Assembly: GCA_025201845.1 (NCBI GenBank)
Contig: MU603965.1
Location: 84,862-148,861, forward strand
Source: Martensiomyces pterosporus
Taxonomy: Eukaryota; Kickxellomycota; Kickxellomycetes; Kickxellales; Kickxellaceae
Direction: 5' to 3'
DNA length: 64,000 nucleotides
How positions within the stretch are numbered: the first letter of the stretch is position 1; every line of letters starts with the position of its first letter. A program made the position numbers and the translations under genes. Positions 13,761 to 62,630 of this stretch are shown here, one piece after another. The notes under the pieces are model-generated. The model made no database searches, was not told where the DNA came from, and saw nothing but the letters and a program-made list of their open reading frames with translations.

Positions 13761-13988
13761 TCAGTAGGCAGACGCGCCGAGACCGTACGCCTGCTTTGAG
13801 CTGCTGAGCTGAGAGGTCGACGACTTGATGGTAAGCGAGTTTCTGCCGCGGTACGAGTATCTTCTGGTCTTCTTTGGGGCAGAGAGCTCGCGCTGGGCCA
13901 TTTCGTGGTGTCTGTTGTCAAACATGATGTGGTCGTAGTAGAGGTCCATGCAGTCGCACTCGAATCCACAGCAAGAGCACTTGATCAT
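13761..13988 (-). CDS. Mini zinc-finger-like protein A
   Basis: A 75-residue protein from ATG 13988. The N-terminus reads IKCSCCGFECDCMDLYYDHI, then MFDNRHHEM. C4 and C7 are followed 12 residues later by the His of YYDH and six residues further by another His, so C-x2-C-x12-H-x6-H. The C-terminal half is basic and Ser-rich (KKTRRYSYRGR) without a recognised domain. It shares the module and the pattern D-x-Y-(F/Y)-D-H-(L/I)-x-F with the genes at 17512 and 62325. It converges on UFD2, 417 nt from its stop. The function is unknown; a single degenerate C2H2-like finger could bind nucleic acid or protein. Family resemblance is seen; zinc binding is inferred. Confidence 0.72.
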   Translation of the reverse strand: MIKCSCCGFECDCMDLYYDHIMFDNRHHEMAQRELSAPKKTRRYSYRGRNSLTIKSSTSQLSSSKQAYGLGASAY

Positions 13989-16475
13989 CTTCAAACGGGT
14001 GTCAGAAATAGGTGTGGGATAGCTGAGAAAGCCTGCGCTGTTGCCAGAGCACGAGAAAAAGCGTATTATGCGTGTGGAGATGGAGATGGAGGAGCCACGA
14101 CTGGGGAAGCAGAGGGAACAATCGGCTTGCAGCTGCAGGCAAAGGGGGCCATTTAAGTACTTCAGCGGAGGACGCCTGAGAAAAAGCTGGGTGTGGAGAA
14201 ATTACCGCCGGTAGCGCAAAACCAAACACCCGAGGGAACCCGACAGGGAAGGCAGCACAAGCAGGAGCAGCATCTTGCTGATAAGGAAGCGCAGGCGGAA
14301 ATCGCATCTGGCACCTGCCTCCCGCCTTTCGCCAGCTGCGCGCCCATGCAAACGCAAATGCACGCCGTGACCGCTTTTTTTCGCTGTAAATTTTCACAAG
14401 CCCGCAGACCGCGCAAGTCAATTGGCCCGCAAATGCGCCGCCATGCTTCGTCTGCGCAAATACCCACTGCAAGCTTGTGTTGGGGGGAGCGTAGCAAGAA
14501 AAAAAGCTTTTCTGTCAATCGCCCGCTTTCGGTGGGCGCCTTCCTATTTCGTGAAAGCAGCACTGCGAACAGCAGGCGTGGGTTGGCAGCAGCTGGCGGG
14601 GGCGGCGGGGCTGCGCCTTGACAGGCTCTGTGCAACCACCAGCAGGCCTCGAGTGCACAAAAAGGTACACGGTGCCAAGTGATGCCTGTGCTATCTCGCC
14701 TCAAGCCCAGCAGCGGGCGTGCTCCTTTATCGAGCCTGGAGGGGCACTGACGAAAGCACATGCCCCTCGGTTTTTCGGTGCGGGGCGCCAGCGCTGTTTG
14801 GCTGGTACGCGCCAAGTTACACCTGCCCCCTACTCCCCCTCGCACACGATTCCTTTGCTGCTGCTTTTCATGTGTGCGTCGGATAGCTTTCAGATGGCGG
14901 TGCTTCTAGCGCTGACGGCTAGCGCCCGTGCTTGACCCTGTCCGCGGGACGAAGGCGCATATGGAAAATGTCTGAACAACGTGCATCTTGCGCCTTGGCT
15001 CTGCCTGGCAGGCTACCCGAGGCCGCATTCAGCAGCAGTAGCAGTGTCTGCCATCCGCCTGCTCATTCGCCTGCTCATTTGCTGACAGCGCAGTGCCGGC
15101 GCACTCAAGCCACACGAGCTTCTCTGCTGAAGCACAGTAAATCCATTTAATCAGAAAATGTGCTGGCAGGGCCAACTATGCTGTCCGTCCCTCCCACCCC
15201 CATTTTCAAAACCCGCCGCCAGCACAAGGCGCTGCTGCCAAGCGATATTGCTGAATGCAAATGGGTCAAGGATGCGCGCCAGCCCGCCTTAGCGTGAAGC
15301 AAGCAAGAAACGTTTCCTTTCTGCCCGGAAGCGCAATAAATACATGTCCAGAGGCAGTAGCAGTGGATAGTACGGACTATTTCGAATTCGGTGTTTCAAC
15401 GGTGAACACTTTGCTGCGCCAGAGGCAGATGTGCTGTTTGGCTCTGCGCACACCCTACCTCGATCGAATGCCGCTTAGTATTTAGCGTTTCCACGAGGAC
15501 ATGGCCGACTTGGCCCGAGCCTGTGACACCTCCTGCTTCCTCTGCTGCTCCTACTCGTCGCGCATTGCTCCATTCCATTATTTTGTGCATTGACTGCCTT
15601 GTTTCCTCTCTACCGCGCATCGGCTCAAGACCTCTTCGCCTGCCTGCCTTGACATTGAAGACACGCGCTACTCTCTTTCCTTGCTGTGCAACGAAAAGCG
15701 AGTGGTCGAATCAGCAGCACATATACGACTCGTGTGTGCAGAGAGCCCCTCATCTGGCCCTTGCATTTCGCATCCAGCACAACTGCCTCCCGTCCCTTTC
15801 GGATCCACACACAAAAGGTGCGCCGCCTCGTCATTTTTGTCTTTGCCAGTGCGCTGTCCAAATAATTCGCTGTGTATCCTCTCCGAATTCGATTATGTCC
15901 GTCGATTATTCATATCTTCCGCCATTGTCTGTTCTGCCATATTGTCCACTGCATGCTTCCCTTGTGCAAAGAATATGGCGAGTTCTGCATATGGGCTGCT
16001 AACACAATCTATGCTGCTTTTGCGTTCACTGTTGTTGTTGCTGGCTCAGCACATTAGGCAGACAGCAGCCCAGGTAAACAGCAGCAGCTTGCACGCTGCT
16101 ACAGCCGCGCCACGCCTCCCTGTCTCGCTGCGCTAGAAATAGGATCTCGGTCGCCTCTCTCTCCTTATATAGTCACTCTGCTATTTTTTTCGTCTTTCAA
16201 GTTCCTTTCCTCTCTCGCTCTTTTCCCTCGTTACGCACACTCCACCTCCTTCCTTTCGCATCTCCCTTGCAACGCCGCCTCGGACCTATCCTTCTACGAC
16301 ATCTTGCGTGGGCCAAGCGCTTTATATTCTCCTATTCACGCACACTCCCGATCCTGCTCCCTTGTCCCCTCCCCCTTATTCCTCCCCTCACTTCACTACT
16401 CCCATCTCTTCTCGTTTCTGAAGTTTGACACTCCTGTTTTCTGGCTCCTTTGCACACTTGAGAAAGAACGAAAAC
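13989..16475. other. Large intergenic region upstream of CAP gene 2
   Basis: About 2.5 kb. The left end holds the probable promoter of mini gene A (minus strand TACTTAAAT at 14160-14152). The right 350 bases are strongly pyrimidine-rich with TATA-like elements and form the leader of the CAP gene. The middle (14,200-15,900) has overlapping open frames on both strands but no domain, start context or splice model I can support. Confidence 0.5.
16166..16172 (+). promoter_or_regulatory. TATA-like element of CAP gene 2
   Basis: TATATAG in a CT-rich context about 310 bases before the ATG at 16476. A second candidate (TTTATATT) is near 16320, about 150 bases upstream. It is not possible to say which is used. 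Confidence 0.35.
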
Positions 16476-17126
16476 ATGAAGCTTTTCTCCGCTCTGAGCA
16501 TTGCCACCCTTGCTCTCATCGCCTTGGTTGACTTTGGCACCGCCTATCCCGTGCGGCTGGACCGCCGGGATCCCGTCACCAAGGTAGTGGAATACGTCCA
16601 CTATGGCGACCACCAGCCCAGCCCCTCCAAGCCGGAGCCAGCCAACTACCGCCCTGCTCCTCCCCCTCCCCAATACGAGCACGAGAGGCCCACGTACCAA
16701 GGTCTGGGACCCAATGACGAGCGCGAGGTCCTCTGCCTCGTCAACAAGGAGCGACGCCGCGTCGGCCTCCGCCCACTCGCCCTGCATCCAGCTGTGACTC
16801 GTGCAGCCTACGAGCACTCAGCGTACCAGTCGCGCATCCAGTCGATGACCCACAGCGACCCGCAGAACGGCCAGGTGGGAAGCAGACTGCAGCGCAACGG
16901 GTTCAACTTTGCCTCGGCAGCAGAGAACATTGCTGAGGCGCCGCATGCCTCAGCAAAGGAGGTCTTTGACATGTGGATTAGCGACCCGCCGCATTACGAA
17001 AATATCGTTGACCCGAATGCCACCTACATGGGCTTGGCCTGCATCAACGGGTTCTGGACTCAGGATTTCGGATCGTCGACAGACACCCGCGATGCTCCAG
17101 AGCACTCGGCGCAGGACTACTGCTGA
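16476..17126 (+). CDS. Secreted CAP-domain (SCP/PR-1-like) protein 2
   Basis: A 216-residue secreted protein, single exon. The ATG at 16476 opens a signal peptide (residues 1-23), followed by a dibasic RR at 30-31 as a likely kexin site and a Pro-rich linker (residues 45-70). The CAP domain starts near residue 78 (EREVLCLVNKERRRVGLRPL). It shows MTHSDPQNG with the first His, SAAENIAEAP, DPPHYENIV with the second His, and GFWTQDFG. A short acidic tail ends in Cys. It is paralogous to the gene at 2843 with a different linker. The role is probably extracellular lipid or sterol binding, by family; nothing in the context narrows it. Confidence 0.9.
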   Translation: MKLFSALSIATLALIALVDFGTAYPVRLDRRDPVTKVVEYVHYGDHQPSPSKPEPANYRPAPPPPQYEHERPTYQGLGPNDEREVLCLVNKERRRVGLRPLALHPAVTRAAYEHSAYQSRIQSMTHSDPQNGQVGSRLQRNGFNFASAAENIAEAPHASAKEVFDMWISDPPHYENIVDPNATYMGLACINGFWTQDFGSSTDTRDAPEHSAQDYC

Positions 17127-17511
17127 AGTCCATTCAGCATCGATGCCCCCCCTTCTTCTAAGCGTCCTTACAATGCGCGAGATTTTCTCTTTTGTTGTAC
17201 TGCTCCTTCAGGAAGGGGGCTTAGCAATGGCAAGCACATGTAGGATTGACACCATGCCACATATTCAGACGTGCTTTCTTTGCGCAAGGGCCTCTTGGGT
17301 GCACTTGTTGCAGCATGTATTTAGAGTGATCGAAATGAAAGAAAACTCGTTGGAGGGATGTGTAGGAGAAGAGGGCTATGTCGAGCGGGTGTGGCGAAGG
17401 TGTGTATTTTGCCATGCAGCATGGCATCTTTTAGGGCGGATGGAGCCAGAATAGTACATGTGTATGGAGTATCAAATGCTCGGTGCTAGTGAAAATGGGG
17501 GTGGGGCGTGG
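17127..17511. other. Convergent 3' region after CAP gene 2
   Basis: A stretch of 385 bases between the stops of CAP gene 2 and mini zinc-finger gene B. No gene is seen. Confidence 0.55.
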
Positions 17512-17688
17512 TTAGCACGCCAAAAGGCTTTGCCGCTTGGTGGACCGTGTTCTCCGCTGCTGCTGCCTGAGCTCGTCTTGCTCCTTCAGGCGCTTCTGCT
17601 CCATCTCGAAGTGCCGGCTGTCGAAGAGGAGGTGGTCAAAGTAGAGGTCGGCTGAGCTGCACTCAAACTCGCAGGTTCTGCACTTCAT
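17512..17688 (-). CDS. Mini zinc-finger-like protein B
   Basis: A 58-residue protein from the ATG at 17688. It starts MKCRTCEFECSSADLYFDHL and continues LFDSRHFEM. C3 and C6 are followed by H19 and H26, so C-x2-C-x12-H-x6-H, the same spacing as mini gene A and almost the same residues (ADLYFDHLLF). The tail is charged (EQKRLKEQDELRQQQRR). A Cys near the end (LLAC) closes the protein. An upstream in-frame extension without ATG was not used. It converges on CAP gene 2. Function unknown. Confidence 0.72.
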   Translation of the reverse strand: MKCRTCEFECSSADLYFDHLLFDSRHFEMEQKRLKEQDELRQQQRRTRSTKRQSLLAC

Positions 17689-24172: not shown

Positions 24173-24289
24173 TAGCATTGATATCCTTTCCATTCCCCTG
24201 GTTTATTTCAGCTGGGTTTTCATAGAGGCCACATGTATAACCACCGAAATACACGCTTTATGTGGAGCTGCAGTACTTTGGTGCCTGGA

Positions 24290-24644: not shown

Positions 24645-24902
24645 TCAGTGAAGCAGAGCAGGGCGGTTCGTGGAGCAGCGGCTAGTGTGGAACAAGAAGC
24701 CTGCTTCGCCCTCGATGACCGTGCTGCAAGTAGGGCACAAGTGAGCGCTGATCTTGTTTTGCCTGAGTGTGCGCTTGGGTCCAGTACCAGGCTGCGGGGC
24801 GAGTGCTTCTGCTACAGCAGCCCTTAGAGCATCGTCGCTGGCATATTTTTCGTTCTTCTGCTGAAGCTGCTGTTGGCTGATCTTGGCTGTGTCCATGTCC
24901 AT
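24645..24902 (-). CDS. Mini zinc-finger-like protein C (C2HC)
   Basis: An 85-residue protein. The N-terminus is polar with a Gln-rich helix (QQQLQQKNEKY), then an Ala-rich segment. The module is near the C-terminus: CPTCSTVIEGEAGFLFHTSRC, that is C-x2-C-x12-H-x3-C. This spacing equals that of mini gene D and differs from the H-x6-H of A and B. A second in-frame ATG two codons later is possible. The gene sits between the two pseudoprotease genes, tail-to-tail with the first. Function unknown. Confidence 0.65.
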   Translation of the reverse strand: MDMDTAKISQQQLQQKNEKYASDDALRAAVAEALAPQPGTGPKRTLRQNKISAHLCPTCSTVIEGEAGFLFHTSRCSTNRPALLH

Positions 24903-37809: not shown

Positions 37810-40622
37810 CTACAACTCGTCTTCATCCTCGTCTTCATCGCTCTCTTCCTCCTCGTTATCCATATCGTATGGCCACCAGTACCTCCCGCGTCTCTCAACA
37901 ACAGCAGCGCATCTTCTGCCCTTGTTCCCATTGCTTGTCAGCACAGTAGGGAATTTAGATGAGGCTTCATTGAGAATCAGCAGCTTTGAAAGTGCCAATG
38001 GCCTCCTCCGCTCAGCCTACATAGGACACTTGAAGTGAGCAAAAAGCGGCATCCATGCACGTTAATGCCAGCTTTGAATACGCCCGGCACGTGTGTCACA
38101 AGACCTGCATTAGCACATCGTCCCTTTTGCCGCCTGACACCAGGTGCCGCATCAAAACGGCAACAATGCAGCGGCGTATACGTTACCTGTGTAGCCTGCC
38201 CGTTGCCAGCTGCAGGGAAGTAGTGAACCACTGTTTCGTCGCGATACTCCAATGCCCCCAGATATGGCGAGTCACAGCCATCTATCGTGAACACGATCCC
38301 CAAGACATCGTCGTCAAAGAACGAAATATCAGTGAGGTGAATAGGCACCGTTGTCGGGCTTGGCGTGGCTTCGTCTCTTATTTCCACTACCAGTGCTATT
38401 GACGCAATTGTCGGATTAACAGCGGCATCTTGAGGTATCGATATTATCTCCAGCACATCGCTGCTGTCCGAGCTCGCTGCGATGTACATGCTTGCTGCGC
38501 TATTGCTCGATCCAACCTGGCGCATGTCTGATAGGTGGCCGATGGGATCGTTTGCCTTCATGCTGATCTGAGCACGTGTGCCACCGTGACTGAGATCCCA
38601 CTGAAGGCTGCTCCCCAAGACGCTGGATGGCCACTTTAACGAGCTAGCAACGAGTGACTTGATCACTGCCAGGGCTTCTTGACATGTCGGTGGCACCAGT
38701 GCACCGCTCTCGTCTGCAAGACCCGCTTTGGCTACCGCAGCATCCATTATCTCTTTGGAATGGAACACAAACCCAAACGGCGCACTTGGCTCCTGTGAGC
38801 TATGTGTTTGGCGTCCTGAGCTGCCAACCCATTTTGGTCCAGCAGTTGTTGGTGAGGCTAGCCGCGAGTAGTCCAGAGAGTCCAAGTGCGCCTCGTGCAC
38901 GAGGACATCGAAATATGCGTCTGTCAGAGATGCGAAATGCGTCTCAGAGTCCTCGGCAGTGTATACAATGTCGGATATTCTCGGCTGCTGTGCCTGCTCG
39001 CTGGTTTGCCGGTGGAATGCCTTGCGGATGAACCTGAGCAGCAGTTTATAGTCGGTGTGTGGCCGCACGGGGCGCGATCCATCGTCTGCCTCGTCGTTGT
39101 GATCGTCATTTCCAATTCTGCGCGATCCTTCGTTCTGCCAATTGAGGTCCTGGATGGCAAAGAGAGCCCAATCGACAAACTCCTGGTTCTCCCTCTGTTC
39201 CTCGCGGACACAGACCATGTACTCCTCCAAACGCGCATAAAGCCAGCCCAATATCACGACTGCTTTGAGCAGCTGGCTCTTGGAGTCTTCCTCTGTACTA
39301 TCTGTCTGCTCCTTGCTGCCAAGGTGGCTGGCCTCAGCCAATACGACCTGAAGCAGCTTGGTGATGGCAAGAATAGCCCTTTCGATTGCAGGGAGCGCGT
39401 GCTGGTACACCAGCCTATTGATGACAACGGCACCCAGTCGGCCGGCACTTTCCCAGTTACTCAGCTTGCTTGCCTTGAGTTTCGCCAGAAGGAACTGAGA
39501 TGTCGGCTCGCTGGCACGGCCAGTGACTGCTAGCCTAGTCATTTCTGCCTCGGGGCTGGTTACTTCATCTACGCCGTGGTCCTGAAGAACGCGCTCAAGC
39601 GTGTGCATCAGCAAGGATCGTGAGGCGCCCCCGCTTCTAGCCTCGCTTTCCTTAATCAGACAGTCAATGGTGTTCTCCAGGTACAGACAAAGCCCCGATA
39701 TATGTGCCGATGACGACGCCAGAGAATGTAGAAGCGGCGAGGGCGATGCGAGGATGGGTGTGTTTAGTGTAGCAGTTAGCAGGTGAGAGACATGGCTGGC
39801 ACTTGAAGGCACACTCGATAGCAGCACATGGAGCTTTGAGGAATCGCTGTTTATGCGCGCGTCGATGGCCATATAGTTGGTGGGGTCTGCTGTGGGTGGC
39901 TGCCAGTTCCGAGGCGGACGCACAACTGGTAGCGCAAATATCCCATTGACACACACCCAGACAGCACCTGCTGATGTGACTGCGACCATTGAGGTCGGCG
40001 TTTCCACGGAAGAGTTGACATAGCTCGGCACCGATTTGCCTTTGTCTAAGGGGCTCAGCATGGGAAGACTGAACTCGAATGGCAGCGATTCAGGGGCACT
40101 AATGTTGCTCTCACCGTGCGCACTGCCGCTGGATTCATCGTTGCTGCTCTTGCACCAAATCCACTCCAGAGCCGCAACACGCTCACCCTCACTGAGTTCG
40201 ATTTTAGACTCATGGACGATATCGCCATGAGTTGGCTCGCGCTGCACAATGCTTCCATCAGCGTGGAGAGCCGCGATGTATGCACCCAGGGGATGCCATG
40301 CAATCGCGCGAATGGCCTGCGAATCACCGCTTGCCTTTTCAGCGTCATGGGCCGCGCCAGACCGTGGCAGGTGGTCGCTAGGTGTGCGCCTCCAGATAGT
40401 CTGGCCACCGCTTAGTCTCACGAGCCGCAGAGCACGTCCCTCTGGGACTGCTAGTACGTCGATTGCTGGGCACCAGCGCGGAGCGACAAATTCATTTGTG
40501 CCTTGCTTCTGCTGCCTGGACGCTGCGCCAGGCCGTAGCTGCAGCGTCTTTTTTCCCGAAAGTGACTGGAACCCATTGACTCTGTATGCATCGCCTGACG
40601 GCGACATGATTTCTACTGGCAT
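37810..40622 (-). CDS. APC4: Anaphase-promoting complex subunit 4, two exons
   Basis: Exon 1 is 40622-38187 and exon 2 is 38016-37810, joined in phase 0 with donor GTAACG and acceptor TAG, about 880 residues. The N-terminal half is the WD40-like Apc4 domain (PRWCPAIDVLAVPEGRALR, then IAWHPLGAYIAALHADGSI). The central helical Apc4 long domain contains LAKLKASKLSNWESAGRLGA and VYQHALPAIERAILAITKLL. The spliced last exon supplies the conserved end of Apc4 (FPTVLTSNGNKGRRCAAVV, then YDMDNEEEE) and a run of Asp/Glu; reading through the intron would replace it with an unrelated Cys-rich tail. Apc4 is a scaffold of the nuclear APC/C ubiquitin ligase that drives mitotic exit. Confidence 0.87.
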
Positions 40623-40788: not shown

Positions 40789-41480
40789 CTAGACAGCTGG
40801 CGGCTCGAAACCTTGGCTGATCTTGTAGTACACCAACGTGGAGTCGGTGTCGACGATGCAAAGATGGACACTACAAGCATTGGCAAATCTCACTGAGTCG
40901 TGTTAGTAAATGGGGTTACATCTCCTGGAGACCACAGTGCCGCATCATCGCCATCACCTGCTTACGCCTCTAAGTGTTTGTCGCCAGTCTGTGTGCTCGC
41001 TACAAGCTTTTGCGATTCCTTGAGTGCACTGGAAATCCAGGACATCGAAATATCCTCAGCTGCCATCACAGGAATGAACAGCTGATGGCTTGAGCCTGCC
41101 GTTGCAGCAATAACAACAGGCACATCTGCTTGCTCTAATACGCCTGTGTGCACATTCGGCAGCCGCTGCTCTATACAATAAAACATAAATAGGTGCGGTG
41201 TTAGTGATGCCTTGTAGCATGGCATCCGAGTATGGCTTGCGCTACTGACTTGTTGGATGTACTCACCGTATTTAAGATCCAGATAAGCTTGGAAAAGCGC
41301 ACGAGCGCGCAGCGGGTACCGCTCACAGATGTCAGCCACCTCTTGATACTACCACCTTAGTTACAGCAGAATGCGGAAGAAGAGATCTTAGAGGCATGCG
41401 ATCTACGCAGCAGCTGGAAGCCCCTTGAATGGCCTCAGCATGCACTGGTGCTTGCTACTTACCTTTGGATGAGAGTTCAT
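40789..41480 (-). CDS. SEN15: tRNA-splicing endonuclease subunit Sen15, four exons
   Basis: Exons are 41480-41463, 41348-41267, 41170-40966 and 40870-40789, all with GT donors and TAG acceptors and consistent phases, giving 128 residues. The joined protein starts MNSHPKYQEVADICERYPLR, then ALFQAYLDLKY, EQRLPNVHTGV, FIPVMAAEDISMSWISSALK and ends VHLCIVDTDSTLVYYKISQG plus eight residues. This matches the TSEN15 fold, including the SDSTxVYYK beta strand near the C-terminus. Sen15 is a structural subunit of the heterotetrameric endonuclease that cuts introns from pre-tRNAs. No single open frame covers more than half of the gene, so it is easily missed. It is divergent from ENP2, with 277 bases between starts. 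Confidence 0.85.
40902..40908 (-). other. Branch-point sequence TACTAAC in SEN15 intron 3
   Basis: A perfect TACTAAC on the minus strand lies about 30 bases before the acceptor at 40871. It supports the proposed last intron (40965-40871). Confidence 0.7.
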
Positions 41481-44353: not shown

Positions 44354-47300
44354 ATGGTGTCGCACTTCTTTTCGCCTTTGCGGACGCTGAAGAAGAAGGC
44401 ACGCGGCCGATTGAACAGCAGCGCCAACAATAGCTGGAGCGACGACTTTGACGATGACGACTCGATTGTTGACGTTTCCACAACGGCAAAGCCAAAGTCG
44501 AATATGGTAGGTCCTCACACTCGATATATCCCGATTCTTCCTTGCTGCCGCTGTTCAATTATCCTGAACGGCCTGGCGAGGTGCTTGCTTGTTGCTCGCA
44601 AAACCTGTGACGCTATTTACAAGCCAGTGCGTGCTGCTTTGGTGTTTGCATCCTCATGTGTAGATGACTGGCGTGTGCTTCTGCTGTGGAAGGTAAGCTA
44701 CCGCAATCCAATTGTCTGCCGATGTTTGTGCACGGCAAACCACCCAGGCCTCTGAGGAACTCTCTGGTTGACCACTGAGCTGAGATGCCTTTTGTCTTTC
44801 GGATCCGCTTGCCAAGTGTAGCAAGGTTTCGTTCCCGCAGTCAGTTTCGTGCTTCAAGTGCACGGTATGCGACACAATAAACGATCTGAATCCGCTTGTG
44901 CGCACAGAGAAGATCGTTGAGGACGGCCAGGTCAAGTCCAAGCGTAAGTTGAATGAACAGGCGAATGAATCAGCGAATTAATGTGCGCATCTGCATCATC
45001 CAGTATGCATTACGACAGCATGTTCAGCGGCACACTAATCAAAGCTGCTTCATTTCTGCATGTAGCGCGAGTGCCACCGCCACCGCTGACGTTGGACCGA
45101 CTGAAGGCTGGTGTGTATGCTTTCAAAAAGCACCCGGAGAAGCAGAGCCTGCTGGAGGCAATGATCAGAGAGTCGTTTGGAAACTGGGACGTGCTAAACT
45201 TCTCCTTTCCCAACGGCAAAGATGTGTCTAGCGACGACCCTGGCGTTTCGCTCAGCGAAGTCCACGCAGCATACAAAATCATACTCGCGCTGGTAAGCAT
45301 CTCCAGCAGCCATCCACCACCCACCATTGCGCTGTCTCTTGCAGCAGGCCAGACCCAGCGGCTAATGCACCTCCGAGATCGCCGCACTATACCATGCTGA
45401 ATTACCGACCTTTTCCTTTGTGTAGCCATCTCCGTTTATTCGCGCCATGATGAATGGCGTCGAGCAGATACTGCGGCGGCCTGGAAGGTAGGCGTTCGTG
45501 CACTTGCTTATTTATTCTGGAAAGGCGGCAATCCGGACGGACTTGGCGCAAAAATAGCGCCCGCGATGCTCTATTTTTACTATCTACTCAGAGAAGCCGA
45601 TCTCTTTCTACATGCACTCTGTTGGTGCTACCCTTGTAGGCCATTGAAGCAGCGAGGAGATATTCGCTTTCTGCTCATCATCATGGAGGTAAGTGTTGGC
45701 GTGTGCAAAGCATGCCTTCTCTTTTTGCTGCCCCCTTGGCGTCGGCTTTGCTTTTAGCATCAAACGAGCGGAAAAGATGAATGGCGCACGCTTTGAGTTG
45801 GCTGCTTGGCTGTGGCCCCGCTGTGTGCGAATTGTCGGTGGGATCTAAATATACCAACCACATGCTCATTTTGTCTGTCTGTAGAACCCGCTTCTCCTGC
45901 AGCAAAGCTTTCCGCAAGAGTCATCCTATCACCACCACATAGTCAAAAGCATCGTCGGCAGCATTGCCAATCTCCCCAACCGCGTGCACTACACCCTCGT
46001 CCTGTGGCTCTCTCAGCACAGCCAGTCGTCGCTCAAGCGCAAAGTGACCTTGGTCAGCCAGTTTGTCTCGTACAGATTGGAGAAATACGACAGAGCGCGG
46101 CGGCGCAATCAGACCCAGCGCATGACCCCGCTGACGTCATACTCGTCGCAGTCGAACCAGACCGAGCTGCCTGCGTTCCAGAGGACAAGGAGCATCACGC
46201 ATGCTCCGCCCATGTCCACAAGGCGTCGGCCGTATGCCGAGAGGATCGGGAGGCACAACAGGATGAGATCGAATACGGATTCGCGTATTTCGCTGAGCTC
46301 GCATGAGAAGACGGCGCTGGCAGAGAGTAGGGATGCGTCGTCGTCGGCTGAGGGGAACAGTGGACCAGGCACGCCGGAAATAGCTGCGAATCATGCCGAA
46401 GGTGGCCATGCGGGCAATAGCCCGTTTGCTTCCGGTGCCAGTGCTGCACAGGGCACAAACCATGCGCTGCCTGGATCTCGCACTAGGCCTGCTGCAAGTA
46501 GCAGGCCAGGCAACCGCGCATCGCCACTAGCGACGTCTGTCCCAATCCCGCCCAGGATGAGCGGCTATATGAATGGCCGAAGTGGCAGCGCAGACACTGC
46601 GCACCAGGGATTCCAATCAGACGCCGAGACGGCTGATGCTGCAAACAACATATCGACGTTTGCAGGGGCAGCTATGGAGGGCGGCGCCAGCGACCACAGC
46701 AAGCCCCTGTCACCGACTGGGCTCGGCATCGAAAACCTGGTCATAGGCGAGGCTAACCCGGCATTTCCCTCGTTGGGCTCGACTCCGCCAAGTGCACTGC
46801 CGAGGCGCATGGTTGACAATGGAAACCAGCTGCAGCAGGCACCGCCACGGATACCAGCCGCTCCTAGCCCGATGTATATACGTGTCCCAGAGCTAGCACG
46901 CGTTGAGGATGACTGGGCCGACAAAGCGACTCGCAAGCGGCGTAGCAAAACAGTGGGAGGATGGGCCAACGAGGGCGGCAGATCGATGCCTGGGTCGCTC
47001 ACAAGCGGCTCAAGCAACGTTCTACCTGAGCCTTGGCGCACCAATGACACGGACTCGCCATCTGCTAGCGACCTCACTCCGCCGCCACAGGCGCATGCGC
47101 GCGAAAACTCTAGCGGCATTGCCGAGATGACAACCCCCGATCCAGTGCTAAGGCAGAGCCAGTTTGTCCCGCTTCGCTCGCACAAGAACGGGTCCCCTGC
47201 CAAGCCTGAATCGCCGGTCACAGCATCGGCAAACACACTGCCAAGGCGGAGCGATGCCGCTGGGAAGGATGCCAGCCTGACGTCGTTTATCCCCATCCGC

Positions 47301-49637
47301 AGCACGCCAGAGATCCCCCAGGGGCAGGCTCTGGCTAGCCATGCTGCGCCAGCTGTAGAGTCTCTGCGGGGCTCCAGTCGCCCTGCCGCCGATTTGGGTG
47401 TGCTGCCAGTCAACCCATTCCGCTCCCTCCGTGGCCCACCCAGACCGCGTGCATCGAGCATGACGCTCAGCGACTTTGCGGCTGAAGCGAGCCAGGAATC
47501 AAACAGCGTGCCACCGCCTGCACGCAAGGACGCTCAGCTGGTGGATCAAGAGCTCGCCGTTCGGCCGGCTAGGGACTCTGTGCTTGGCGTTTTGGATGGC
47601 ACGGCAGAGCCCAGTAATCCGGCCACTAACTTGGGTCCGCGCTCTTCGCTGACGCGCACACGGTCCAGCTCTGAAGCACCCATTAGACGCCGCGCAGACC
47701 ACGAGATACTGACAGCAAACGAGCCGCCGTCGTCCAACCTTGTCGGCGACTGGGGGAGCGGCGTCGACTTGGACGACTACTATGTGGGTGCCGACGGCGT
47801 GTTCTACCCAAAGTCAAGCAGCCTGGTTATGTACCAGCACGACTGGCGGCTTGTTACGGCGGCCAAGGTGATGGCGCTTTTGCATGCGGCCAACCTCCTG
47901 CTCCCGACTCGCTCGCGGCTGCCTATAGAGGCATTTTACAATGAGGCGATCGACAACATGGATCTCATCTCCGACTATGATGCATGGCAGGCACGCGTGC
48001 CGGGTGCGTTCTCGTTCTGCCAGTACCCCTTCCTGCTTAGCCTTAAGGCCAAGGTGCAGATCATGCAAGTGGATGCGGCACGCCAGATGGACTCGAAGCT
48101 GAAGGAGGCTGTTATTTCGGCGCTGTTCCAGAACTACCACTCGAGGGTAAGCAACCCGTCGCACCAGCCGCATCTGAAGCTCCTTATCCGCCGCCGCTGT
48201 CTTGTTGAGGACTCGCTGCACCAGCTGGCGACGCGTGAGCAGGACTTGAAGAAGAGGCTGAAGATTGAGTTTGTAGGGGAGGAGGGAGTCGATGCAGGCG
48301 GGCTGGCTAAGGAGTGGTTCATGCTGCTGGTGCGCGAGCTGATGAACCCCATGTACGGCATGTTCCGCAGAGAGAGCGACGATTCGGCTGGGTCGGCGCC
48401 AAACGCGAATGGCGAGTCGGGAGATGGCGCCTGGGGCGGCGCGTACTGGTTCAACCCGGCGTCGCTCGAGACATCGAACCAGTACTTTTTGGTCGGAGTT
48501 GTGGCTGGGCTTGCGCTGTACAACTCGACGATTCTTGACTTGCACCTGCCCTTGGCAGTGTTTAAGAAGCTCCTGCGCACAAACTTCTACCCCACTCCCT
48601 CGGGCTCCTCTGTGTCTCCGTCGTTTGGCTCGCAGGCTACCGACAATCCGCCGCCGTCAATCGTGTCAGGAAACCACAGCTTGCAGCACCCCAGCGCTAC
48701 TGGTGGATCCGGCGGCAATGCGGGGAAGGGCAAGGGCGGTAACGGCGGCGGGGTGAATGGGCAGAAGGGCGCGGCGTATGCCCCGCGGTATGGCCCAGCT
48801 GCAGCAGCGAGCGGCAAGCTGGGCGGTGGTAGTGGTGGCGGCGGCGGCGGCGCCAGCGGCGCTGCTGCCGAAGGCAGGTCACCCATTTACGGCCTGCTCT
48901 CGCCGTCGGCGCAGATTCGCTATCAGATAAACGAGATGATGTCGGATGTGTCGGAGTTCAGGCCACAGCTTGCTCGCGGGCTGCGCCAGCTTCTGCAGTA
49001 CCGCGGAGACGACGTCGAGGACGTGTTTTGTCTGTCGTTTGAGGCCTCGTATGACGCATACGGCGAGGTTGTTACGGTTCCCCTGGTGTCGAATGGCGCT
49101 AACATCCCTGTGACCAGCAGCAATCGCGTGGAGTACGTGACCAGGTACTTGCAGTGGATCCTCAACGACTCGATTGCCAAGCAGTTTGAGCCATTCAGGC
49201 GTGGGTTTTATTACGTGTGCGGAGGCAACGCCCTGTCGCTGTTTAAGCCGGAGGAGATTGAGCTGATGGTTCATGGGTCGGACGCCGACTGGGATCCCAA
49301 TCAGCTGGAAGCCATCACGGAGTACGTGAACTTTGGCGGCGAGGAGGAGCAGCACAACAAGATGCTGATTGCGTGGTTCTGGGAGATCCTGCATGGCATG
49401 ACGCCGGTCGACAGGCGTGCATTTTTGGCATTCGTGACGGGGACGGATCGCATGCCGACGGTGGCGAATACGCAGCTGAAGCTGAAGCTGGTTCTGCTGG
49501 GCGACGATTACCGGAGACTGCCGATTGCCCACACGTGCTTTAACCAGCTGGGAATTTGGCGCTATAGGAGCAAGCTCGAGCTGCACCGCAAGCTCAGCAT
49601 GGCGCTTAAGGAGAGCGAGGGATTTGGTCTTCGGTAG
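44354..49637 (+). CDS. HUL4: HECT-type E3 ubiquitin ligase, Hul4-like, seven exons
   Basis: Exons: 44354-44506, 44664-44692, 44822-44943, 45066-45292, 45426-45487, 45640-45688 and 45885-49637. All have GT donors and TAG acceptors with consistent phase, giving about 1,464 residues. Exons 2-3 build a Cys-rich segment (GVCFCCGSKVSFPQSVSCFK, then CTVCDTINDL) typical of Hul4 relatives. Residues 250-840 are Ser/Pro-rich and disordered. The HECT domain begins near 1006 (IEFVGEEGVDAGGLAKEWF) and ends with the catalytic Cys near 1432 in AHTCFNQL. A Gly/Ala-rich insertion (about 1150-1215) interrupts the N-lobe. HECT ligases accept ubiquitin on this Cys before transfer to substrate; in yeast Hul4 acts with Tom1 and the TRAMP-related nuclear quality control. 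The five small internal exons are the least certain borders. Confidence 0.85.
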
Positions 49638-49791: not shown

Positions 49792-50595
49792 ATGTCTGAA
49801 ACCTACGAACATGCGGGCCACGAGGGCGACAGCGACAGAGAGTCGATGTCCTCGGGAGGCAGCTCCAGCGGCGATGAGTATCTATGTCCCATTTGCCTCC
49901 AAAAAGTAGCTGATGCAGGCTACGTTGATCCATGCTACCACCAATTCTGCTTTGCGTGCATTTGCCAGTGGATTGAGTTCCGCCCGCAGTGTCCACTATG
50001 CAACGGCAAAGTTGATACAATCGTCAAGCAGACATCATCTGGTGGAGTAGCGAAGCTAGTTGTTGTTTCGGGTGCTGCCAGGGAGCCACACAGAGCGCAG
50101 AATGCCAGCAGCTCGCGTAATAGTCGCCGGCGGTGCAATGCCTCCTACGGGAGGAGCCAGGCCATCACGCAGGCAGACGAGGAGCTGGGGATGCGAAAGC
50201 GCACAGCCGTGTATGCGCACAGCCTGCATCGCGTAGACACGCCCCCGCTGGCGGAGAGTAGCCGTAGGACGCGGATATCGCAGACGCCCAATGCGCTCAA
50301 AAGGGAGATTGGCTCTGAGCGGTGCCGAGAGTGGATCCGCCGAGACCTTCGGGTGGTTCTCGGTGTTGGCGATGTCGAGTTTTTTGTATCGGTCGTGGTA
50401 TCGGCTGTACGGGATCTGGGGTCGCTGGAGATGAGCGATGTTGGAGAAATGGTTGGCAGTGTCTTGGAAGACAAAGCGGGAGTGTTTTTGCGCGAGCTGG
50501 CGGCGTTTGTGGACTCGCCGCTGAGCATGGCCATGTATGATCGCTACGTTGCTTACAGCACAACCCAACCCACTTCAGCTGCCGATGACCTGTAG
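49792..50595 (+). CDS. RING-finger E3 ligase, TOPORS-like
   Basis: 267 residues, single exon. A C3HC4 RING lies at residues 32-74: CPICLQKVADAGYVDPCYHQ, then FCFACICQWIEFRPQCPLC. Its pattern (hydrophobic residue, D, x-Cys, x-His, Q/K, FCF) is that of TOPORS and viral ICP0-like RINGs. It probably promotes ubiquitin or SUMO transfer in the nucleus, by family. The rest has a Ser/Arg-rich linker and a helical C-terminal region (about 165-250) similar in position to the conserved region following the RING in TOPORS relatives, but I cannot name a domain. It starts 154 bases after HUL4, in the same direction, so two ubiquitin ligases are adjacent. Confidence 0.82.
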   Translation: MSETYEHAGHEGDSDRESMSSGGSSSGDEYLCPICLQKVADAGYVDPCYHQFCFACICQWIEFRPQCPLCNGKVDTIVKQTSSGGVAKLVVVSGAAREPHRAQNASSSRNSRRRCNASYGRSQAITQADEELGMRKRTAVYAHSLHRVDTPPLAESSRRTRISQTPNALKREIGSERCREWIRRDLRVVLGVGDVEFFVSVVVSAVRDLGSLEMSDVGEMVGSVLEDKAGVFLRELAAFVDSPLSMAMYDRYVAYSTTQPTSAADDL

Positions 50596-50664
50596 ATTTT
50601 TATACATTAATTCGTACACATAGAAAGGCGTTACAAGGTGGCTATTGAGACGTGGGCGCAAGCA

Positions 50665-50820
50665 CTAGCTGAAGAAGCAGTGTGCTTTGTGCGACAGATA
50701 GGAGGAGAAGGTGCTGAGCCCCATGCCACAGCGCTCGCAGGTAAAGTTGTTCTGGCTGCCATCTCGGTCGGGTCTTGACTCTACAGCTAGGCGCGTCCTG
50801 ATGGCCTTTACAAGCTCCAT
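50665..50820 (-). CDS. Mini zinc-finger-like protein D (C2HC)
   Basis: A 51-residue protein from ATG 50820 to TAG 50665. It reads MELVKAIRTRLAVESRP, then a short polar linker, then CERCGMGLSTFSSYLSHKAH followed by CFFS and the stop. The module is C-x2-C-x12-H-x2-H-C, readable as C2H2 or as C-x2-C-x12-H-x3-C; the latter equals mini gene C. The stop lies 69 bases from the stop of the RING gene, so the two transcripts almost certainly overlap at their 3' ends. It is too short for most gene finders. Function unknown. Confidence 0.65.
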   Translation of the reverse strand: MELVKAIRTRLAVESRPDRDGSQNNFTCERCGMGLSTFSSYLSHKAHCFFS

Positions 50821-57621: not shown

Positions 57622-58247
57622 TCCTTCTCTCGATTTTCTATAAATCTCCTTTTCTCCTCTCCTTCTTCCTCTCCTTTCTACATTATCTTAACTTACAGCA
57701 CTCTTCTTATCCTCTGATATGCATGTGCTTGCTTCGCCTTGGCAGTGATTTCCCGGGTCTTGGTGTGCGTCTTGCGCGGCCATTGTTGCCGCTCCTGTTC
57801 ATATTAGGCGCCAAGCGCACCTCTCGCATTTAGCCAGCGCAGATGACGGATGGCGAATGGCATAATGGCCTTCAGTGCGGCCCAAAAACACAGGAGCCGC
57901 TGCTGCTGCTTGTTGCGTGTTGTCCCTGACTGGCAGGGGAGGATTAACGCCTTTTCCTGATTTATGGCGGCCATACCACAAGACACACCCTGAGCGCGCA
58001 TATGCCAGCTCTCCAGGACAGCGGCTGGGAGGAGCACCCGGCATTGGACAACTGACCTCATCGCCTCCCCTCCTCCAACGTCGGGTGGAATAAAAGGAGC
58101 AAGGGCGGCCTTTCCCATCCCGGCGTGCATGTCTCTTCCCCATCCGTGCAGCTCTCTCTCCTTCCAGCTACTTTATTATTGCTCTATTAATCTCCATAAA
58201 GCAGGCGACGCCTACTGTACATTTTGCCTTCCAGAGACACACACAGC
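57622..58247. other. Intergenic region between Rho-like genes 1 and 2
   Basis: A stretch of 626 bases; pyrimidine-rich 3' flank (57625-57710), then a promoter part with TAAAAGG near 58091. No gene is seen. Confidence 0.6.
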
Positions 58248-58883
58248 ATGTACGACAAGCACGACTATACCAACTACGTGGCCCGGCGCAAGGCCATAGT
58301 GATAGGCGACGGTGCGTGCGGCAAGACCTGCCTCCTGCATGTGTTCCGCGAGGGCCAGTTCCCCATTGACGACCGCTACATCCCCACAGTGTTCGAGACC
58401 TGGGTTGCCGAGATGGAGGTGAACAACTCGCCTGTGGAATTGTCGCTGTGGGATACGGCGGGGCAGGAGGAATTCGACCGCCTGCGGTTCCTCTGCTACC
58501 CGGACGTCAACGTCGTCATCATATGCTTTGCCGTGGATTCTCCCGACTCGCTCGAGAACGTCGAGGACAAATGGTATGCCGAGGCAGCGCAGCAGGCTGC
58601 TGGCGCACCGGTGGTTCTGGTGGCTCTGAAGCTGGATTTGAGAAACGACCAGAGAGCGATTGACGAGCTCGCTAGATATGGCCAGGCCCCTGTGTCGATG
58701 GCGCAGGGGCAGAGGATGGCCAAGAAGATTGGCGCCGTGTCGTATGTCGAGTGTTCAGCCATCAAGAACCTGAATGTCAGGCAGGTCTTTGAGATTGCGG
58801 CCAGAGTGTCGATGACACCCGCAGCACTTCCCAGGGGCAAGGTGCAGTCGTCGTCGTCGACAGGCTGCTGCGTCATTCTGTAA
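58248..58883 (+). CDS. Divergent Rho-family GTPase, tandem member 2
   Basis: 211 residues from the ATG at 58248 (MYDKHDYTNYVARRKAIVIG), intronless. The P-loop is GDGACGKT; the effector loop is YIPTVFETWVAEM, again with Trp instead of Tyr; switch II is WDTAGQEEFDRLRFLCYP; base recognition is LKLD. The tail is Ser-rich (VQSSSSTG) and ends CCVIL, so a CaaX prenylation box without lysines. It shares with member 3 the EEFDRLR switch and the QAPV insert region, so 2 and 3 are the closer pair. Possible membrane-associated signalling protein; effectors unknown. Confidence 0.9.
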   Translation: MYDKHDYTNYVARRKAIVIGDGACGKTCLLHVFREGQFPIDDRYIPTVFETWVAEMEVNNSPVELSLWDTAGQEEFDRLRFLCYPDVNVVIICFAVDSPDSLENVEDKWYAEAAQQAAGAPVVLVALKLDLRNDQRAIDELARYGQAPVSMAQGQRMAKKIGAVSYVECSAIKNLNVRQVFEIAARVSMTPAALPRGKVQSSSSTGCCVIL

Positions 58884-59498
58884 AGCGGCCTGTCTACATC
58901 GGAGCGCCTCTTATTTTATCATACCTGTCATACCTGGGCTTCCAGATGTTTTTGCTAATATACCTGTGCTGTAAAGAATGGCACTTGCTGAGCCGGCACA
59001 TGTGGACACGCCATGGCGATATTTGAAGTGCACTTTGATGCCCCTGACTTGGGCCAGGGGAGTGGCAGCCTGCTTTTGTTTGTTGCTGCCTTGCACCAGC
59101 ACCAGCACCAGCAGCGGCAGCAGCAACAGCAGCAGCAACAGGGATGATAGACAGGCTTTGGGGCGTCACAGGCTGCGCAGCGAGGGATTTGCGTCTGCCA
59201 AATGCCTGAGGCAGACATAGACCCATCCCCAGATTGCATAGCGCGAAGATTTGCAGCCATCTGTTGTTGTCTTCCTTTGCCTTGCATTCTGCTCACATAG
59301 CAAAGAACAAAAGCACATAAAGAAAGACCGGCAGAGGCTGCAGGCTCTTTTCTCCTCTCTTCCATTCAGCTTGCCTTCACTATTTGCACCTTTTTCAGCA
59401 CGCACTTTACCCAGCCACACCCCTCCCTCCACCACTTTGCTCTTCTTTTGGCACCTACCCCAATACCCCCCTAGCGCACCCATCTGCTCTTTTCAACC
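58884..59498. other. Intergenic region between Rho-like genes 2 and 3
   Basis: A stretch of 615 bases. It contains a CAG/CAA-type trinucleotide repeat and a pyrimidine-rich leader before the third Rho gene. No gene is supported; frames on the minus strand across the repeat are low-complexity Leu/Cys. Confidence 0.6.
59093..59142. repeat. Interrupted CAG/CAA/ACC trinucleotide repeat
   Basis: About 16 triplets, first CCAGCA-type, then CAGCAGCAA units, in the non-coding space between Rho-like genes 2 and 3. Confidence 0.75.
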
Positions 59499-60119
59499 AT
59501 GGCTGACAATGAGGCGTATCCAGTACAGATTCAGCGCAAGATGATCCTCATCGGCGACGGAGCCACCGGCAAGACCTGTCTCCTGTACACGTTCCGCGAG
59601 GGCCAGTTCCCGCCCGACAATCGATACATCCCGACAGTCTTTGATACCTGCATAGTGGACATGGAGGTGCGCGGCCACCCAGTAGAGCTCTCCCTATGGG
59701 ATACTGCTGGCCAGGAGGAGTTTGACCGTCTGCGCATGATGTGCTACCCAGGAGTCAACATAGTCCTACTTTGCTTCTCCGTAGACTCGCCGGACTCCCT
59801 CGAGAACGCCTACGAGAAGTGGTTCCGGGAAGCAACGAAACAGGCCAAGGGAGCGCCCATCATCCTCGTGGCCCTGAAGACAGACCTGCGTGCGGACCAG
59901 AGCACCATTGAGCACCTGGCCCGCTTCGGCCAGGCCCCCGTTACGTATGCACAGGGCCAGGCGGTCGCAAAGAGGATGAATGCAGCAAAGTACGTGGAGT
60001 GCTCGTCCATTAGGAACCTCAATATTAGACAGGTCTTTGAGACAGCTGCTAACCTGGCCGTGTCGCCGGAGGATCTCCCTAACGCAAAGCCTGAGAGCGG
60101 GTGCTGCGTCATCCTGTGA
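59499..60119 (+). CDS. Divergent Rho-family GTPase, tandem member 3
   Basis: 206 residues, intronless. The P-loop is GDGATGKT (20-27), with Thr in place of Cys; the effector loop is YIPTVFDTCIVDM, with Cys where Rho1 has Tyr; switch II is WDTAGQEEFDRLRMMCYP; base recognition is LKTD. The tail lacks a basic patch and ends CCVIL (geranylgeranylation predicted). The three genes point the same way, about 620 bases apart, which fits serial tandem duplication. Together with RHO1 the window carries four Rho-type genes. Confidence 0.9.
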   Translation: MADNEAYPVQIQRKMILIGDGATGKTCLLYTFREGQFPPDNRYIPTVFDTCIVDMEVRGHPVELSLWDTAGQEEFDRLRMMCYPGVNIVLLCFSVDSPDSLENAYEKWFREATKQAKGAPIILVALKTDLRADQSTIEHLARFGQAPVTYAQGQAVAKRMNAAKYVECSSIRNLNIRQVFETAANLAVSPEDLPNAKPESGCCVIL

Positions 60120-60898
60120 AGCTCTGCGAACTACGCCATTTTACTTTAAAAGCCTTTCCACGACCCTTGTTAGTCCCTGGACTCCTTTTCCCCATTCTTT
60201 GAGCTTTTCCTGTGCGTGCGTGGCTGGTACCCCCCCCTGCTAATTAATAACCATCTTTCCACCCAAACACAGCATGGATATGCTGCTCGTCTCCACATGT
60301 TTACACCTTCAGTGTTTCAGGATATCCGCCCCTCTGCGCCCCAGCGCCAATGACGTCGAGTGCACTGATTTTGTCTGCAATGGCTGGATCGACTCGCTCG
60401 CTTTTATCCGCTCAGCGTCTCCCACGCAGAGGCCAGCAGGCCCAGGGGCAGCTTGCGCCCCATGCACCGCTTCCGCCTCCTTTCTCCCGCTTGCTGCTGG
60501 CGTGTTGCTTACTTCTGCGTCGTTTTGTGTCAGTGAATTCGCAGACCCACCTGTTTCATAGTCAGTTCCTCCACCCTTGTTGGCACGCTACTGTCCCGCG
60601 CTGTTCTACGAGCTTCACAGAGCACCCAGAAACCCCTTCAGCTGTGGGTAAAAGGCGTGCTGGTTCTACTGTTCTATTTCTGCAGCTCTTCCTTGGCGCT
60701 CCGAGCTTTTATTTCCTCATATCCCATCTGGCCTTCCTCGCCAAAAAGGGTGCGCTCGGGCTCCTTGTCTCTCTCTCTTTCTTTCTTCTCATACCCACCG
60801 CTCCTTTATTTTGCTCCTCGCCACGCACCCTTTTCCCTTTTCTTTTCTTTCCTTTTCACCCACACCCACGCAAAACCACTCATATTAAAATCGGGGCC
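60120..60898. other. Intergenic region and pyrimidine-rich leader of the ZIP gene
   Basis: A stretch of 779 bases. The open frame of the ZIP gene runs through it from 60350, but the translation is low-complexity and the DNA at 60,690-60,870 is strongly CT-rich, as in the other leaders here, so it is not counted as coding. No other gene is seen. Confidence 0.55.
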
Positions 60899-62239
60899 AT
60901 GCAGGCAGTGTTTCGGCTAGTGCTCGAGGGCCTCGCCATGTTCGCAGGCTCCTGGGCAGCCGGTTGCGTTCCATTGTACGTGCGCATGGACAGCGCCCGC
61001 TTCAATCTCCTGGCTCTCTTCGGTGCTGGCCTCCTTATTGGCGCAGCCCTGGCTGTGATCCTGCCCGAGGGAGTAGAAACGCTGTCCAAGGCTTTGGAGA
61101 GTAGGAAGAGCAAGTCGGAGACCCAGAACAATCTCATCGAGTCCATGAACAACACCATCGGATGGGCCCTGGTAGCCGGCTTTTGCGTCATGTTCCTCAT
61201 AGACAATGCATTCCCCTCGCACAGCCACGACAGCGCTGCTGAGGGCGGCGAATGTCCCGCAGGGGGACAGACAGGCAACATGGCGAATGATAGCGCGGCG
61301 TGTCTGGAGGATATCGCTATGTCACCTAGAGGCAGAGACGCGCGCGGACGAATGGCAACGCCAGAGTTTGCGCTCAGTGAGCCGGCTAATCGCCACCACT
61401 TGCACCAGCAGCAAATGGCGAGTGACTCAATGTCGTCGTTTGCCATTGGAGTCGACGACGAGCGCAATAATGGCGATGCCAGGCCGCCACGCAACAACGC
61501 CGTCATGATGTCCGGCAACGGACTCGGACTATCCAGCCCTGCAGACAACGGGGCGGCGGAGTGGGACAGGCGGCCAGCAAAGCCTCAAAGTAAGTGGCTC
61601 AGGATCCTGAGCAAGGTCGGGATGGCGCTGTCGCCGCGCTTCCTCCCATCCACACTGATCGGCATCCTGGTCCACTCGTGCGCAGACGGTCTGGCTTTGG
61701 GTGCAGCGGTGGCTGCGTCGTCGGCAGCCGAGGCTGCTACTTCGCCGAAAAACGCAAAGGACGCGAGTGCCGGTGAGCATACGTCGTCGCTTGAGATCAT
61801 TGTGTTTTTGGCGCTTTTGCTGCACAAAGCCCCTGCTGCCCTGGGGCTTATTACCACGCTGAAGCAGCAGGGGTATGCCAGGTACAAGCTGAGTGTATGG
61901 CTCACCGTGTTTGCTGCCTCCGCACCGCTGGCTGCTCTGGTGACGTTTGCTGTGTTCTCGCTCATCAGCCCGTCGACTGCACAGGGTGCCTCGGCTGGTG
62001 GCGTGCAGCCATGGACTGGCACGATTATGCTGTTCTCAGCGGGCACGTTTATGTATGTGGCTATGGCACACACATTGACTGAGGCTGTGCAACAGGCAAA
62101 GGCTTTGAGAGCCCGTGGCAAATCGACAGCCAGCTCTGCGGGGCATCATGGTGGAGGGTCGCTGAGCCTGCTGGATGTTGTAGTGCTTCTGTTTGGCGTT
62201 GTATTGCCTCCGCTTGTTGCCAAGGACCACGACGGCTAA
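60899..62239 (+). CDS. ZIP-family zinc/manganese transporter (ZIP9/Atx2-like)
   Basis: 446 residues from the ATG at 60899. The first helix starts directly (VFRLVLEGLAMFAGSWAAG), then LLIGAALAVILPEGVETL, typical of ZIP9/Atx2. A His-rich loop with HSHDS and a long polar loop (about 120-240) follows. The metal-path helices carry HSCADGLALGAAV and LLLHKAPAALGL, with the conserved His and Asp. The C-terminal helices end LLFGVVLPPLVAK. The family moves zinc or manganese into the cytosol, often from the Golgi. In this window it is tail-to-tail with mini zinc-finger gene E at 85 bases. Confidence 0.9.
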   Translation: MQAVFRLVLEGLAMFAGSWAAGCVPLYVRMDSARFNLLALFGAGLLIGAALAVILPEGVETLSKALESRKSKSETQNNLIESMNNTIGWALVAGFCVMFLIDNAFPSHSHDSAAEGGECPAGGQTGNMANDSAACLEDIAMSPRGRDARGRMATPEFALSEPANRHHLHQQQMASDSMSSFAIGVDDERNNGDARPPRNNAVMMSGNGLGLSSPADNGAAEWDRRPAKPQSKWLRILSKVGMALSPRFLPSTLIGILVHSCADGLALGAAVAASSAAEAATSPKNAKDASAGEHTSSLEIIVFLALLLHKAPAALGLITTLKQQGYARYKLSVWLTVFAASAPLAALVTFAVFSLISPSTAQGASAGGVQPWTGTIMLFSAGTFMYVAMAHTLTEAVQQAKALRARGKSTASSAGHHGGGSLSLLDVVVLLFGVVLPPLVAKDHDG

Positions 62240-62324
62240 ACCACGTGTCTTTCTCTTTTGCCATGTTTCCATGTCTGCTTTGCACTTCCGAGATGTTTAT
62301 TACATTTACTGCAAGACTTGTTTA

Positions 62325-62630
62325 TTACTCTGTGCATGGGTGGCTGTGGTAGTGGAGGCGCTCATGTGCCGACAGACTTGCTCTTCGGCCGCCACTGCAG
62401 CAGCATTTTGGCGGCGGAGCACCGCATGTCCCCGATGCTTGTAGGAGATCTTGGCTACAGCAGGAGGCGCTGCGCCGCCTGTATATTGTGTGTTTGGCCG
62501 GTCGTGGCGGCAATTTGAAGCTCAGCGTGTACTCGTCGGAGGAGTCGCTGGGTTCATGGCAGGCAAAGAGCAGGTGATCAAAGTAGGCATCAGCCGAGGT
62601 AGCTACGAAACAGCATGATGTGCACTCCAT
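62325..62630 (-). CDS. Mini zinc-finger-like protein E
   Basis: 101 residues from the ATG at 62630. It begins MECTSCCFVATSADAYFDHL, then LFACHEP. C3 and C6 are followed by H19 (C-x2-C-x12-H) and by C24/H25. The string AD-x-YFDHLLF is nearly the same as in mini gene B. The long tail has extra Cys (SASCCSQ, PKCCCSGG) and a His-rich end. Directly upstream on its strand are a TATTTAA box and a 22-base palindrome. Function unknown; the neighbouring ZIP transporter may be coincidence. Confidence 0.7.
   Translation of the reverse strand: MECTSCCFVATSADAYFDHLLFACHEPSDSSDEYTLSFKLPPRPAKHTIYRRRSASCCSQDLLQASGTCGAPPPKCCCSGGRRASLSAHERLHYHSHPCTE

Follow-up and report, generated by a model that had tools for sequence, protein, structure and literature searches.

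Do five very short open reading frames (ORFs), each encoding one Cys-x2-Cys-x12-His module, represent real genes, do they form one family and what might their products do? This question is raised by a stretch of 64,000 nucleotides from the fungus Martensiomyces pterosporus (Kickxellales, Kickxellaceae; contig MU603965.1, here C37, positions 84862-148861), which as a whole is called the window in the following. A preliminary description of the window had named the ORFs genes A to E and had taken them for a dispersed family with a constrained core, present in very large number per genome. Our sequence comparisons indicate that the one-finger proteins form a small but real family, which was seen in these searches only in Kickxellales and carries no name. 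The window lies on a 149-kb contig. The genome searched comprised 17,376,407 bases in 216 contigs, and all counts of matches within it are lower bounds.

The five mini-genes and their relatives

All five ORFs were recovered on the minus strand where they had been placed before, each running from ATG to stop and each with the C-x2-C-x12-H core. No ORF of more than 136 amino acids overlaps any of them. The genes and their modules are as follows (window positions).

13761..13988, minus strand: gene A, 75 amino acids, single exon, A-type, N-terminal finger, eight A-type relatives
13908..13979, minus strand: module of A, C4-x2-C7-x12-H20-x6-H27
17512..17688, minus strand: gene B, 58 amino acids, B-type, N-terminal finger, four B-type relatives in Coemansia
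17611..17682, minus strand: module of B, C3-x2-C6-x12-H19-x6-H26, with C10 also invariant
17527..17556, minus strand: basic tail motif of B, R45 ... R52-x-S54
24645..24902, minus strand: gene C, 85 amino acids, C2HC module near the C-terminus, without homologue
24675..24737, minus strand: module of C, C56-x2-C59-x12-H72-x3-C76
50665..50820, minus strand: gene D, 51 amino acids, C-terminal C2HC module, homologue D2
50677..50739, minus strand: module of D, C28-x2-C31-x12-H44-x3-C48
62325..62630, minus strand: gene E, 101 amino acids, diverged A/B-like copy with a Cys-rich tail
62556..62624, minus strand: module of E, C3-x2-C6-x12-H19, the fourth ligand probably shifted to C24 or H25

Proteins were searched with a profile built from A, B and E, and 15 of 48 candidates matched at an E-value of up to 1. 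Three of these are from the same genome: P0002 is B, P0005 is E and P0006 contains A. Of the others, eight are A-type relatives from Linderina pennispora, Kickxella alabastrina and six Coemansia entries, and four are B-type relatives, all of them Coemansia entries. A and B therefore belong to a real family with relatives in other Kickxellales. The names shown for the relatives are 'hypothetical protein', and no work on this family was found by title in the open-licence literature under Kickxellales or Coemansia zinc fingers or under Martensiomyces pterosporus. In the search of the own genome, A and B were 44% identical over 50 amino acids (E 8e-11) and are, by this measure, paralogues. E matched B with 58% identity over 24 N-terminal residues (E 0.02).

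In five of the eight A-type relatives (P0008, P0014, P0015, P0016 and P0018) a methionine stands directly before the module; the other three are partial. The public model of A, P0006 (GQ54DRAFT_332893, 115 amino acids), joins a 40-residue upstream exon (15578-15459) to the whole of A across an intron of 1470 bp. Because the five relatives from other species have their methionine directly before the module, the start of this model is probably an annotation error.

Constraint was measured by comparing protein identity in the module with that beyond it in 14 A- and B-type proteins, including our A and B and excluding E and P0006, the latter as a duplicate of A. In the module (C3 to H26 of B), the mean pairwise identity was 0.89 for the A-type (36 pairs) and 0.93 for the B-type (10 pairs), against 0.43 and 0.58, respectively, in the tail. 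Between the two types it was 0.56 in the module and 0.34 in the tail. The module residues C6, E9, C10, D14, L15, Y16, D18, H19, F22, D23 and H26 are invariant in 14 of 14 proteins, C3 in all 12 that extend to it and C12 in nine of nine A-type proteins. The proposed constrained core was thus borne out. The genes had also been said to differ outside the module, which is not quite right, since R45, R52 and S54 of the tail are invariant in 14 of 14. Because of H26 and these three tail residues, the core of the A/B-type, as read from the alignment, is redefined as C-x2-C-x12-H-x6-H plus a second conserved element in the tail. Further copies and conserved Cys/His positions were looked for in related fungi, and both were found for the A/B-type.

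The idea of one family of five stood only in part. A, B and E form one group, but D goes with its homologue D2 and with a further gene, G, and its relatives (see below), and C is joined by its motif only. A protein search with C gave no match among six candidates and the own genome no second copy, so C was not accepted as a member by homology.

The motifs were compared with 60 simulated windows (order-2 Markov model, ORFs of 40-120 amino acids). The bare core occurred in eight ORFs of the window against a simulated mean of 1.75 and a maximum of 6. It is weak evidence, since the enrichment is moderate only. By these figures, the three other ORFs that bear it (1993-2187 and 4543-4728, plus strand; 41056-41220, minus strand) look like chance. 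The core followed by a Cys or His 3-8 residues later was found seven times (simulated mean 0.70, maximum 3). The pattern D-x-Y-[FY]-D-H-[LI]-x-F, reported earlier for A, B and E, was confirmed, with three occurrences against 0.00 in the simulations, and is not due to chance. Also confirmed was C-x2-C-x12-H-x3-C near the C-terminus of C and D, found twice against a mean of 0.13. Since the simulations, too, reached a maximum of 2, this test by itself does not set C and D apart from chance.

Copy number and concentration on one contig

Similarity searches of the own genome with A, B and E found no relatives besides these three. The D-x-Y-[FY]-D-H stretch was also searched for with a short pattern at the DNA level, which occurred at four places in 17.4 Mb, and its reversed control at none. 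The four places are A, B, E and a gene on contig C18. A homologue of D, D2, lies on C37 outside the window, where a scan of the complete contig also found two mini-ORFs with the module, F and G. The additional genes are the following (contig positions).

C18:161961-162260, minus strand: C18 gene, 100 amino acids, A/B/E-like, H-x6-C, His-rich C-terminal tail
C37:41467-41658, minus strand: D2, homologue of D with 55% identity over 29 amino acids (E 8.8e-5)
C37:46103-46333, plus strand: F, mini-ORF with the module
C37:31680-31952, minus strand: G, mini-ORF with the module

With a profile built on D, D2, F and G, three Coemansia proteins were obtained from three candidates (P0019-P0021, E 7e-10 to 2e-9). 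Their identity to G is 53-63% over 80-92 columns, and they are orthologues of G in kind; an R-R-R-S-S arm is common to all four. D and D2 align with the three over the finger at 32-47% identity, with E-values computed for three sequences only.

The nine genes of this genome (A, B, C, D, E, D2, F, G and the C18 gene) were then compared. All nine have a Tyr or Phe three places before the core His, although the search pattern of the C18 gene had itself required the Tyr. The signature C-x2-C-x9-[YF]-[FYLM]-x-H gave eight six-frame matches in C37, all of them in mini-ORFs starting with Met; the bare core matched 27 times, including these eight. In 60 simulations of C37 the signature occurred 0.08 times on average and at most once, a figure that is optimistic since the signature was defined after these sequences were known. 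The comparison with control sequence is sounder. No match was found in 135,749 control bases from other contigs, 15,749 of which are loci previously picked by our searches, and eight against none gives a binomial p of 0.008. When the aromatic pair was shifted to other positions, zero or one match remained.

Looser patterns gave a similar picture. One of them matched 12 short ORFs in C37 against none in two 50-kb control stretches; the four of the 12 without the signature are counted as chance. A looser gap gave 11 matches in C37 against two in 120 kb of control, and the three extra ones in C37 lie in frames without a preceding Met or of 30 amino acids. A C-x4-C variant was absent from C37 and occurred once in the control.

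A very large number per genome is not supported by these results. The searches of 17.4 Mb add one A/B/E-like and one D-like gene, and the signature is concentrated on C37. The set looks local, concentrated on one contig and not of huge copy number, although similarity searches are no proof that further copies are absent elsewhere, given the strong divergence of C, D, F and G. Several weak matches in the own genome were rejected. The loci on C59 (E 0.18) and C14 were read and lack the signature, as do those on C50 (E 0.0036) and C22 (E 0.13), each of which also has an internal TGA. The match on C17 (E 0.0019), likewise without the signature, is a Ser/Arg/His-rich stretch in an open frame of 2192 amino acids and fits the tail of E. 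A subtelomeric origin of the cluster was considered and dropped, as no doubled TTAGGG, the one repeat checked, occurs anywhere in C37.

Gene signals and predicted fold

A TATA-like box within 400 bases upstream was present in five of eight genes, against 23% of 553 mechanical ORFs: in A (TTAAAT-type, at -168), B (-226), C (TATAAAA, -149), E (TATTTAA, -138) and G (-146). Within this distance none was found for D, D2 and F. In four of the eight the box lies at -130 to -180, a range set post hoc, against 3% of the mechanical ORFs. AATAAA was found within 400 bases downstream in four of eight (A at +122, C at +96 and +101, E at +24, and D2), against 13%; it was not found in this range downstream of D. 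Codon usage was scored with a model for which ten of the window's long ORFs served as training set, and ranked against 556 mechanical ORFs of 45-105 amino acids. The percentiles were 100 for G, 98.7 for A, 97.1 for B, 89.2 for the C18 gene, 87.6 for C, 82.6 for D2, 82.2 for D, 72.3 for F and 67.6 for E. Codon usage supports A and B well, C and D moderately and E poorly. Overall, A, B and G stand firm as genes, D and D2 are likely, and plausibility is all that we claim for C, E and F.

Among the products of the window's long ORFs are a Ufd2 E4 ligase, Atg22, hexokinases, APC4, NOL10, a HECT ligase and a ZIP transporter, as expected of a eukaryote with long uninterrupted frames. Four genes are of the ubiquitin-ligase type: Ufd2 (10233-13343), APC4 (37977-40622), HECT (45984-49637) and a RING gene (49792-50595). 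A adjoins Ufd2 and D adjoins the RING gene, possibly by chance. Between A and B, an ORF on the plus strand (about 16477-17126) has an N-terminus that looks hydrophobic by eye and perhaps encodes a small secreted protein.

Structures were modelled for B and D. The B model (mean pLDDT 75.3) has helices at 13-22 and, longer, at 24-57, with single bridge residues at 2 and 9. The D model has two 2-residue strands and a helix at 38-50, with a pLDDT of about 90 in the finger. Thirteen of the 19 weak PDB matches of the B model are C2H2-type fingers, by title or by what is known of the protein. Those of the D model are largely C2H2-type fingers as well, together with the single fingers of NEMO, MOZ and Rad18. 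With the D-group profile, 78 PDB sequences matched, led by the repeated C2H2 fingers of PRDM9 (E 4.5e-14), single stretches of which scored only 6-13 bits. The zinc-finger-like module proposed earlier is in line with these models, which weakly suggest a C2H2-like finger. No Pfam family matched at its curated cut-off, the zinc-finger and ribbon families scoring 9.9-13.6 bits against cut-offs of 25.6-28.1. For D, whose model weakly resembles single CCHC or ubiquitin-binding fingers (NEMO, MOZ, Rad18 UBZ), zf_UBZ reached 13.6 bits against 25.6.

Classical C2H2 fingers (beta-beta-alpha, zf-C2H2 clan) have the spacing C-x2-4-C-x12-H-x3-5-H and a Leu three places before the first His. Our modules share their C-x2-C-x12-H frame and, as said, most of the weak structural neighbours. 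They differ in the last ligand, with H-x6-H in A and B, where the second His lies beyond the core first described, H-x3-C in C and D and H-x6-C in the C18 gene. H-x5-H occurs in E alone, where this segment is unlike A and B. They also differ in the aromatic residue that replaces the Leu in nine of nine genes, in having one finger only and in the acidic helix face of A, B and E. Plant MINI ZINC FINGER microProteins are likewise small with a single zinc-finger-like domain (PMC6003976), a likeness in size and design. MicroProteins have larger multi-domain kin, whereas similarity searches with all nine genes, which reach only fairly close relatives, found no larger carrier of the module in the own genome.

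A possible docking function and its alternatives

Charge was analysed in 16 proteins of the A, B, E and C18 types (P0006 excluded as a second copy of A). Their modules have a net charge of -3 to -5 and their C-terminal arms of +4 to +8. Helix positions 2 and 6, the base-reading positions of DNA-binding fingers, are Asp in 16 of 16. Such an acidic helix face suits protein docking well and is a poor fit for contact with DNA or RNA. The modules of C, D, D2, F and G have net charges of -1 to +1, and the charge argument does not extend to them. In the tail, 12 of the 14 A/B-type proteins have a strict [RK][RK]-x-S, and R-x-S in a basic tail resembles the sites of basophilic kinases.

The explanation that we prefer, and to which as a whole we give an even chance, is that real single-exon genes encode small intracellular docking proteins with one finger and a regulated tail. 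Each protein would consist of the module, in a C2H2-type fold, and a short arm, and would reside inside the cell. In A and B, one zinc would be held by the two Cys and two His of C-x2-C-x12-H-x6-H; in C and D, the putative zinc set is C-x2-C-x12-H-x3-C. The fixed acidic and aromatic helix face of A, B and E, D-[LA]-Y-[FY]-D-H, may dock onto a partner protein. This interaction could be switched by the basic tail, in which R-x-S is invariant in the A/B-type and which probably serves as a kinase site and/or localisation signal. The A/B/E group would have arisen by duplication, most members staying in one neighbourhood on C37, and the modules of A/B/E and of C, D, F and G may have a common origin.

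The same H-x6-H and long helix, aided by the basic Arg/Ser tail, could instead make the proteins U1-type-like fingers that bind RNA or DNA. We consider this rather unlikely in view of the acidic finger and the two Asp of its helix. Also, a Pfam comparison of 15 members, up to E 10, listed six families and no zinc-finger family among them, U1, matrin and DBF included. A role as zinc or redox sensors or stores, with the extra Cys and His binding or releasing metal, would agree with the invariance of C10 and, in the A-type, C12, with the Cys-rich tail of E and the His-rich tail of the C18 gene and with the gene for a ZIP zinc transporter (60350-62239) that adjoins E. But many invariant residues are not metal ligands (D14, L15, Y16, D18, F22 and D23) and the ZIP neighbour may be chance, so that this role seems quite improbable. 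Another doubt concerns the genes themselves. C, E and F have no orthologues in the searches made, the codon scores of E and F are unremarkable and two ORFs with the C/D motif arose also in the simulations. They might be chance ORFs bearing the motif, leaving A, B, D/D2 and G as genes. This is unlikely in our judgement, as E has 24 N-terminal residues in common with B and is among only four matches of the D-x-Y-[FY]-D-H pattern genome-wide, and as both C and E have a TATA-like box and AATAAA.

The fungus, from an early-diverging order, is not known as a plant pathogen. The proteins could be secreted, effector-like ZiF proteins, kin to AVR-Pii of the blast fungus Magnaporthe oryzae. AVR-Pii has C-x2-C-x12-H-x-C and contacts Exo70 with residues that include Tyr64, Phe65 and Asn66 before His67 (PMC9618136; PMC11213319). 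It resembles our proteins in its small size, its one C-x2-C-x12-H module and its aromatic pair before the His. With the A/B/E profile, two PDB sequences matched in a search up to E 10, one of which was AVR-Pii (E 0.88); among the 78 matches of the D-group profile it ranked 27th (E 0.34). These scores are not significant: the other A/B/E match, an unrelated helicase chain, was better (E 0.52), and rubredoxins outrank AVR-Pii with the D-group profile. AVR-Pii was absent among the matches listed for the B and D models, which excludes nothing. The last ligand differs, H-x-C in AVR-Pii against H-x6-H in A and B and H-x3-C in C and D, and a Cys two places after the His occurs in none of the nine genes. 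By inspection, A and B leave no room for a signal peptide, as their modules begin at residue 3-4; proteins without such a secretion signal are dropped in PMC11213319. Because of the last ligand and the missing room, the proteins were not filed under AVR-Pii/ZiF, and we regard secretion as effectors as very improbable. Equally improbable is an old intracellular toolkit of fungal trafficking regulators, single-finger docking proteins that would share with AVR-Pii the Cys/His set and the aromatic surface holding Exo70. If it were true, the secreted ZiF effectors would be an offshoot of that toolkit or a case of striking convergence.

In the docking-protein explanation, an acidic, conserved finger combined with a basic, possibly phosphorylated tail would make a regulated adaptor of compact design. 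As one-finger genes that have diverged strongly are concentrated locally in M. pterosporus, they would suit the study of how tiny proteins originate and diversify.

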